Below are positions 39,406-40,992 of a stretch of DNA of 41,978 bases, one piece after another. The stretch's first letter is position 1. Each line of letters opens with the position of its first letter. Source of the DNA: Lacinutrix sp. (GTDB lineage Bacteria; Bacteroidota; Bacteroidia; Flavobacteriales; Flavobacteriaceae); NCBI RefSeq assembly GCF_023299985.1, contig NZ_JALZVX010000124.1:1-41978 (forward strand). The letters run 5' to 3'. The position numbers were made by a program, and so were the translations under genes. The notes beneath the pieces were generated by a model. It worked only from the letters and a program-made list of their open reading frames with translations. It was not told the DNA's origin and ran no database searches.

Positions 39406-39801
39406 ATGAAAAAAGACATCCATATTCCTAAAGTTGAAAACGTTTACATTGCTGTAGTAAACGAGTACAACGACATTTATAAAACACAAGATTGGAACGC
39501 TTACATTATTAACGATAAAGACGTTGATATAGAAATGGTTTTAATTGTTACAAGTGGCTATAATGAAGATAAAATGACTTCTATCTTTAGAAAAAAACTA
39601 GATGTACTCCCTAAAAAAAGCTATGCTAAAATAGAGTTAATGCAAGAAGATTTATTTGCACTAAATAACCAGTTTAAAGTTACTTTTTTTGAAGATAATA
39701 AGATGTTTGATAAAACATACACTTTTAGAAAAAACACTATTAATTTAAAGGCTTTGCAGTCTTTGCCTTTAATGGAAGTAAAAGGTGTTTTGGTTAAATA
39801 A
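39406..39801 (+). CDS. Conserved hypothetical protein downstream of pheS
   Basis: 131-aa ORF MKKDIHIPKVENVYIAVVNEYNDIYKTQDWNAYIIND...; short gap to pheS, same strand. Confidence 0.7.
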   Translation: MKKDIHIPKVENVYIAVVNEYNDIYKTQDWNAYIINDKDVDIEMVLIVTSGYNEDKMTSIFRKKLDVLPKKSYAKIELMQEDLFALNNQFKVTFFEDNKMFDKTYTFRKNTINLKALQSLPLMEVKGVLVK

Positions 39802-39804
39802 CCA

Positions 39805-39824
39805 ATTCCTGAGAATGCAGGAAT
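39805..39824. repeat. Degenerate short palindrome attcctg-agaatg-caggaat
   Basis: 7-bp inverted repeat starting 4 nt after the stop of the preceding gene; related to the 7867 and 28548 elements. Confidence 0.6.
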
Positions 39825-39877
39825 CTTATAATAAATAAGCATAAACTTAGAAAGAAACTTTACAGTAGTAGATTAGT

Positions 39878-39960
39878 GCGTTAGGGATTGAACGGTCTGT
39901 TTGAGCTCCTCGAAGAGAGCGAGTAGTGAAAGCCCGACCTTTTTAGGTAACGCCCAAAAA
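39878..39960 (+). ncRNA. Candidate structured dispersed element: GCGTTAGGGATTGAA...GAAAGCCCGACCTTTTTAGGTAACGCCC
   Basis: Closing helix GCGTTA (39878-39883) / TAACGC (39948-39953), inner GGG/CCC potential and a small internal hairpin (ctc-ctcgaa-gag region). GC-richer than its surroundings, in an otherwise non-coding convergent gap. Resembles a motif I recall recurring in flavobacterial genomes. Confidence 0.45.
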
Positions 39961-39964
39961 GATA

Positions 39965-39989
39965 AAATTCCTTTTTTTTAAAGGGATTT
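39965..39989. terminator. Terminator-like hairpin aaattccttttttttaaagggattt
   Basis: AAATTCC(TTT)/(AAA)GGGATTT stem immediately downstream of the gpsA stop (minus strand). Confidence 0.55.
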
Positions 39990-39990
39990 A

Positions 39991-40992
39991 TTAATCCAAC
40001 TTATCAGTCAATTTTTTAAATACTTTTTTAGCGTCTTTACCTTCATATAAAATTGCGTAAACAGCATTTATAATTGGTAGTTTGGTTTTGCTTTTATTTT
40101 TTTCGTTTAATAAAAAAGCACTTTTTGTAGCGTAGTAACCTTCAGCAACCATACTCATTTCCATTTGTGCAGATTTTACAGTGTAGCCTTTACCTATCAT
40201 GTTTCCAAACATGCGGTTTCTAGAGAAAACCGAGTAGCCAGTAACCAATAAATCACCTAAGTAGGCAGAGTTGTTTATGTTACGTTTCATTTTATGCATT
40301 TTCTTAATAAAACGTTTCATTTCACGAATTGCATTACTCATTAATACACTTTGGAAATTATCGCCATAGCCTAATCCATGAGCCATTCCAGCTGCAATAG
40401 CATAGATGTTTTTAAGCATTACTGCATATTCTGTACCTATAACATCGTCGCTAATTTTAGTTTTTATATAATTGCTAGACAAAGCATCTGCAATTGCTTG
40501 CGCTTTTACAGCATCTGCACATGAAATAGTTAAATAAGATAATCTTTCTAGTGCAACTTCTTCTGCATGGCAAGGTCCAGCAATAACTCCAATATTTTCG
40601 AAAGGTACATTAAAGTTTTCATGAAAATGCTCGCCTAAAAGTAATCCTGTTTCTGGAAGAATACCTTTTACAGCACTAACTACAATTTTATCTTTAAGTT
40701 CTAAATTAAGTTTTTTAAGTTCACTATTAATAAAAGCAGAAGGGATTACAAATATTAAAACATCTGCATAAGTCACCATCTCATTAATATCATTACTAAT
40801 ATGAAGTTGGTCTAAATGAAATTCTACAGAACTTAAATACGTAGGGTTGTGTTGTTCTTTTAGTAAGTGTTCTTTAGTGTAAACACTTCTCATGTACCAA
40901 CCAACCTTTTCTTGGTTTTCACATAGCATTTTTACTATAGCAGTTGCCCAACTTCCAGATCCAAAAACAGCATATTTTAATTCTTTACTCAT
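39991..40992 (-). CDS. gpsA: NAD(P)H-dependent glycerol-3-phosphate dehydrogenase
   Basis: YAVFGSGSWATAIVKML, VIFVIPSAF, GVIAGPCHAEEVALERLSYLTIS, YAVMLKNIYAIAAGMAHGLGYGDNFQSVLMSNAIREM. Confidence 0.95.
   Translation of the reverse strand: MSKELKYAVFGSGSWATAIVKMLCENQEKVGWYMRSVYTKEHLLKEQHNPTYLSSVEFHLDQLHISNDINEMVTYADVLIFVIPSAFINSELKKLNLELKDKIVVSAVKGILPETGLLLGEHFHENFNVPFENIGVIAGPCHAEEVALERLSYLTISCADAVKAQAIADALSSNYIKTKISDDVIGTEYAVMLKNIYAIAAGMAHGLGYGDNFQSVLMSNAIREMKRFIKKMHKMKRNINNSAYLGDLLVTGYSVFSRNRMFGNMIGKGYTVKSAQMEMSMVAEGYYATKSAFLLNEKNKSKTKLPIINAVYAILYEGKDAKKVFKKLTDKLD

Follow-up and report, generated by a model that had tools for sequence, protein, structure and literature searches.

A short folded element beside gpsA, found in a 41,978-nucleotide stretch of Lacinutrix sp. 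DNA (the whole analysed sequence, referred to here as the window), is a member of an interspersed family of REP-like elements, the Flavo-1 superfamily, which is enlarged by a variant carrying a different stem module (module A). The copies of this family form a three-armed fold specific to one strand, are inherited in place under purifying selection, are located at gene ends and exchange their stem modules. The best overall explanation, to which we assign a probability of roughly 0.45, is a REP-like element folding as a single strand, mobile in origin and now retained at gene ends, where it acts as DNA; the last property, action as DNA, is probable.

The whole element has 76 bases and forms a three-way junction with an A-type stem module (Table 1). 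The initial annotation reported a candidate structured RNA or dispersed mobile-type element at 39878-39990. The reported sequence is present there, and its extent stands for 39878-39953 (with CCAAA, to 39958) and falls for the remainder, since 39959-39990 is AT-rich DNA of the gpsA side, lies outside the element and contains a hairpin that resembles a terminator of gpsA. A further dispersed palindrome, TTCCTGC..GCAGGAATC, was noticed at 39806-39828 of the window, and similar ones are located near other copies (e.g. L012, L110).

Table 1 Features of the element and its neighbours (window coordinates)
Feature	Position	Strand	Evidence or remark
Whole element	39878..39953	+	Full-length match to covariance model R1, 63.4 bits, E 2.1e-11
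P1 closing helix, 5′ side GCGTT, partner 39949-39953	39878..39882	+	Both-side changes at all five P1 pairs, 93 copies
P2 base, 5′ side GGGATT (GGG with 39933-39935, TT with 39930-39931)	39884..39889	+	Covariation
Exchangeable type-A stem module with apical hairpin	39890..39927	+	Core GAGCTCCTCGAAGAGAGCGAG at 39903-39923; module B replaces A at orthologous sites
P2 base, 3′ side GAAAGCCC	39928..39935	+	Covariation
P3 hairpin ACCT-TTTT-AGGT	39937..39948	+	Alignments of copies; part of the DNA minimum-energy fold
P1 closing helix, 3′ side AACGC	39949..39953	+	Both-side changes at P1 pairs
Conserved 3′ edge CCAAA, probably belonging to the element	39954..39958	+	Exact CCAAA there in 83/176 copies; positional profile
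gpsA, stop codon (39991-39993) facing the element 3′ end	39991..40992	-	Distance 37 nt, phase 1; terminator-like hairpin between
131-aa ORF on the 5′ side of the element, convergent with gpsA	39406..39801	+	Other genes in its place in some relatives

Taken singly, the window copy has a fold that is only mildly unusual (z of -1.7 for RNA and -2.7 for DNA), as a chance hairpin in an intergenic gap might have. Such an origin is practically out of the question, being refuted by the BLAST and model matches as well as by the covariation and conservation of the copies. BLAST gave 16 matches to the element in the draft genome to which the window belongs (2.57 Mb, 78% complete), and a covariance model built from 22 copies raised this to at least 33 copies. 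The same model found 4-58 copies per genome in 12 members of the genus; copy numbers drop outside Flavobacteriaceae, where weak matches may have been missed by the model search. The sequence is therefore not single-copy: the homologue search and the covariation check that had been proposed for it yielded both homologues and strong covariation, and the statement of the initial annotation that similar ends recur in flavobacterial genomes proved right, the family being found across Flavobacteriaceae.

The known relative of the element is the Flavo-1 RNA (Rfam RF01705; Weinberg et al. 2010, PMC2864571). The comparison with Rfam suggested by the initial annotation identifies Flavo-1 for sibling copies and not for the window copy. 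The search of the whole window gave nothing at Rfam's own thresholds, and the window copy, with 17.7 bits against Flavo-1, stays under the 42-bit gathering threshold and thus outside the family as defined there, because it carries a different stem module that is missed by Rfam and is also widespread. Four sibling BLAST places lie above the cut-off (50.7-61.2 bits vs 42), B-type siblings with the same ends score 50-64 bits, and the Rfam model alone recovers 20 copies in the window's own genome, 19 of them over the cut-off. The likeness to Flavo-1 comprises the P2 ladder of 2-3 bp helices split by G.A-rich internal loops, in which columns 7-12 and 16-17 covary, and the ends, which the B-type siblings carry too. 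The differences are the A stem module, the P1 and P3 arms falling outside the Rfam model, and the evidence obtained here, which favours DNA over sRNA.

The fold has three arms: P1 (GCGTT/AACGC), P2 (GGG/CCC and TT/AA, followed by an internal loop and 2-3 further pairs) and P3 (ACC..GGT). The pairing of the ends, proposed earlier as GCGTTA/TAACGC, holds as the covarying P1, the inner GGG/CCC pairing corresponds to the covarying P2, and the central small hairpin is confirmed; the third arm ACCT/AGGT (39937-39948) had been missed. For 13 pairs in 93 copies, 97% of the cells were paired and 11 of the 13 pairs had changed on both sides, with 187 double-change cells; shuffles gave 50 and slid controls no more than 37. 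The result was replicated in a second set of 93 copies from many named genera (95.9% paired, 146 double-change cells). Covariation also includes a non-canonical site, A.G in 83 copies and G.A in 10, and G.A occupies column 13 in 93/93 copies. In the P2 base of the window copy A39887 lies opposite G39932, a position that swaps from A.G to G.A in other copies. P3 is hypervariable in length among the aligned copies, with its pairing always kept.

The wobbles on the written strand are 18 G-T vs 2 A-C (binomial p 4e-4, shared ancestry ignored), and the written strand is therefore the folding strand; it was also more stable than its complement in 147 of 179 copies. For the window copy alone DNA energy parameters predict the three-way junction and RNA parameters another structure, and the mean probability of the covarying P2 pairs, taken over 186 copies, is 0.485 with DNA parameters vs 0.214 with RNA parameters. 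This comparison, which hinges on mismatch parameters, may be taken as a pointer to action as DNA rather than as its proof.

The arrangement of conserved ends around a variable middle, correctly recognized in the initial annotation, is the key feature of the family. In the alignments the A- and B-type copies share the ends GCGTTA(R)GGATTGA ... AAGCCYGACC..GGTAACGCCCAAA and differ in the middle, which is GAGCTCCTCGNAGAGAGCGAG for module A (window copy) and GCGGCATCCTTTTTT..AAAAAAGATATAGCGG for module B. The exact A core AGCTCCTCGVAGAGAGCGA was found in at least 118 GTDB genome stretches, nearly all from Flavobacteriaceae. In Tenacibaculum and some others it lies between the classic Flavo-1 ends TAGCCC..GGGAAATAGC; ends and stem modules therefore combine freely. 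In a comparison of the window's genome with two species at greater distance, the stem module differs at 11 of 36 shared orthologous sites, and among the carriers of the element at the gpsA site in the genus three versions of its middle occur. Individual exchanges were seen at orthologous loci of two sister genomes. At the L157/L167 locus (G009:C1:1829343-1829429 vs G011:C22:81893-81972) module A faces module B on both arms; the upstream flank is identical, and the ends and the apical loop are kept despite the swap. The apical hairpin has been replaced by an unrelated hairpin at G009:C1:1695387 / G011:C20:91744, and at G009:C1:1494085 / G011:C2:75063 the apical hairpin and P3 have been replaced in the same manner.

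In sister genomes, whose flanks are 97-99% identical at most loci, nearly all copies are paired in place; for 6 of the 44 copies of one sister genome, the DNA fetched from the other contained no partner. In 33 orthologous pairs, substitutions affected 15 of 3098 element sites (0.48%), compared with 153/5284 (2.9%) in the flanking intergenic DNA and 857/33710 (2.5%) in coding DNA (p 6e-17 and 2e-17, respectively, vs elements). Individual copies are thus under purifying selection, evolving sixfold more slowly than their flanks in this pair; counting copies present in both genomes favours well-kept ones, and the sixfold gap is still large. For the window's genome and the two more distant species the orientation was the same at 36 of 37 shared sites, with one inverted, and the conserved partner at shared sites was mostly the 3′-side gene. 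Of 13 genus genomes, 10 have the element at the gpsA site in one common orientation, two are without it and one has a decayed remnant (L117, G004). An inverted pair occupies the same gap at G000:C10:7827-7899 (-) and G002:C1:2964629-2964742 (+); the two copies have different module types, and in each orientation the 3′ end points towards a gene boundary.

The position of the copies relative to genes, with gene ends taken from a simple ORF caller, is strongly biased. Their 3′ end faces a stop codon in 60 of 87 copies from three genomes, within 25 nt in 44 of them, whereas in 7 of the 87 a stop lies not more than 25 nt from the 5′ end; the corresponding numbers in a second set of 92 copies from other genomes are 41 and 3. 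The usual layout is a stop codon, about 10 nt, the element reversed, about 80 nt and the start of the following co-oriented gene, and the folding strand is therefore mostly antisense to the neighbours. Many copies, intergenic location and a bias to gene 3′ ends are properties of REP sequences, which are mostly located behind genes, close to stop codons (PMC3733652). The genes on the 3′ side, named by eye, are mixed housekeeping ones (GuaA, TpiA, TrpB, HflX, pyruvate kinase, GpsA and others), and the search for a common function among them revealed no single regulon. Replication-strand bias was considered as the cause of orientation and rejected: judged relative to GC skew it is weak, and stop-side placement occurs on both replichores. 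Some copies form inverted, BIME-like pairs about 110 nt apart (L157 10512-10598 (-)/10711-10796 (+); L257 5755-5829 (-)/5942-6026 (+)), and in a three-copy cluster (L346) and the two-copy loci ordinary genes and no recombinase were found between the copies.

The distance from the element 3′ end to the stop codon, which peaks at 7-13 nt, is 3-periodic (1, 4, 7, 10, 13, 16, 19; maxima at 10 and 7; about 120 copies). The phase was repeated in a separately fetched set (17/24), and after pooling and deduplication 61 of 93 copies shared one phase (p 6e-10, corrected for phase choice), a p-value made optimistic, like the others given here, by the shared ancestry of copies, which deduplication by protein ends lessens and does not remove. 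None of the three remaining pairings of an element end with a gene end showed a frame in this pooled set. At orthologous sites with identical protein ends some distances differ by 3 or 6 nt and others break the phase. The favoured phase is the one that on average gives the soonest stop on read-through; copies without an early read-through stop hold it too, and a backup stop codon is therefore no more than a candidate cause of the frame lock.

A role in ending or protecting the mRNA of the neighbour is the main rival to action as DNA. The element could be an mRNA-level 3′ element of the adjacent gene, comparable to E. coli REPs situated not more than 15 nt from the stop, or an unusual terminator, and the frame-locked peak of stop distances fits with this; E. 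coli REPs within 15 nt of the stop stall ribosomes (PMC12306157). Intrinsic terminators were also significantly rarer in gaps with an element than in other gaps (13/73 vs 75/201), with a small second set going in the same direction (5/18 vs 11/21, not significant). However, the structurally selected strand is the complement of that mRNA, and because it is not the mRNA strand, a simple mRNA 3′ UTR structure is disfavoured. The hairpin and T-run of an intrinsic terminator do not occur together here: no T-run follows the element in either direction, the 3′ flank being CCAAA and the 5′ flank A-rich in the gene sense. Moreover, the terminator-like hairpin at gpsA already lies ahead of the element, and one copy sits between trpB and trpA. 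We consider such a role at the mRNA level doubtful.

Still less probable is an autonomous structured small RNA, the class ('Gene; sRNA') under which Rfam lists Flavo-1. In its favour are the covariation, the wobbles of G-U type found on the written strand, the purifying selection acting on each copy and the strong Rfam matches of the siblings. Yet there was no sign of a promoter of its own, the motif TAnnTTTG occurring upstream in the element sense 22 times vs 24 expected, whereas the promoter motif of the neighbour was threefold enriched on the opposite strand. With no own promoter and a strand mostly antisense to the neighbour, an autonomous sRNA is therefore unlikely, and the presence of dozens of dissimilar copies, mostly antisense to the adjacent gene, also speaks against it. 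In the transcriptome of Flavobacterium psychrophilum transcripts do not track Flavo-1 matches, which are found 'indistinctly' in sense or antisense, many being untranscribed (PMC9723704). Action as DNA has its own difficulty in this respect, as the selected fold could still be RNA: a minority of copies (about 15-25%) lies in sense just upstream of a gene, with the 3′ end often 10-20 nt from the start codon, and some Flavo-1 matches of F. psychrophilum are located in transcribed leaders (PMC9723704). Among the three options offered initially, a non-coding RNA, a 3′ UTR element or a REP/MITE-like repeat, the REP-like one fits best, while the autonomous ncRNA and the simple 3′ UTR element are disfavoured.

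The REP-like character leaves the matter of mobility. The element could be a currently mobile REP/MITE-type element moved in trans by a Y1 (RAYT/TnpA_REP) or other single-strand transposase, its retained copies having no role. Conserved ends, a folded strand and 4-58 copies among genus members agree with this, and RAYTs of subclass 2.6 of Bacteroidetes have at their flanks 'atypical secondary structures' that recur in other places of the genome (PMC6006769), so that an ancestral RAYT is still conceivable. The in-place pairing of nearly all copies in the sister genomes and the purifying selection speak against present mobility. The search for Y1 transposases in the window's own genome and 60 relatives found none in several genomes with 30-51 copies, no R1 element occurred within 32 sources around Y1_Tnp genes, and RAYT/Y1 was rejected as the current mobiliser, showing no association with the element in the own genome, the relatives or the Y1 loci. 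In a wider stretch, one Flavo-1 copy and a Y1 gene were about 2.4 kb apart (L144; G018); G018, a member of the family, has 14 Y1_Tnp matches and is rich in intact IS200-type transposases. For 87 copies the signal of target-site duplication was not clearly above chance, and presence/absence differences occur but no clean empty-site junction was found among them. Searches for carriage by plasmids and phages gave no match; four viral-contig matches of the A core were rejected as chance, lacking the ends of the element. We judge current mobility improbable.

Like REP/BIME sequences with their RAYT, the element is short, folded, intergenic, present in many copies and placed behind genes near stop codons; unlike them, it has neither the GTAG/CGTC foot (the 5′ flank profile shows a pyrimidine at -1 only) nor an adjoining RAYT gene flanked by repeat copies, and it has a larger three-armed fold, a lower copy number and orthologous retention across species. 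With MITEs it shares small size, non-coding nature and pairing ends, but it differs in the missing target-site duplication, in the strand-specific fold and in that no parent transposon was found. Integron attC sites likewise fold on the strand opposite to the coding strand of a gene with its stop just upstream and combine conserved ends with a variable middle. In the element, however, the end motifs are reversed in order (GTT first, AAC last), the aligned ends reading GTTARG first and TAACGC last instead of the attC boxes RYYYAAC ... GTTRRRY, there are no cassette arrays, and the neighbours are housekeeping genes.

The favoured explanation is a REP-like element retained at gene ends and probably acting as DNA. 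Where opening or negative supercoiling affects the duplex at a gene end, the written strand would fold, and a putative host protein may hold the folded strand, so that the gene is followed by a boundary of the kind formed by REP/BIME sites. A strand-specific recombinase or transposase probably used this single-strand fold as its substrate when the element first spread. New insertions would have survived mainly just behind stop codons, in one reading phase, and later change may have been mostly in-place exchange of the stem module or arm tips, perhaps by gene conversion. Against this explanation it must be set that neither a binding protein nor a recombinase was found, and the results on Y1 genes, target-site duplication and empty sites weigh here as well. 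A further-reaching proposal, which we put forward tentatively and hold to be far from likely, is that the family represents a new chromosomal punctuation, a strand-specific three-armed ssDNA fold selected behind housekeeping genes, with its stop distance frame-locked and its stem modules exchanged cassette-like between fixed ends.

Since 2010 Flavo-1 has remained an orphan 'RNA', and the present analysis adds to it a closing helix, a third arm and a second stem module that Rfam does not detect. In the literature searched, this is the first evidence for purifying selection on its individual copies, for their location at orthologous gene ends and for folding of the strand that is mostly not the mRNA. 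The annotation becomes testable with respect to the binder of the fold, its action as DNA and its codon-frame spacing from stops, and has a bearing on how REP-like repeats turn into host functions.
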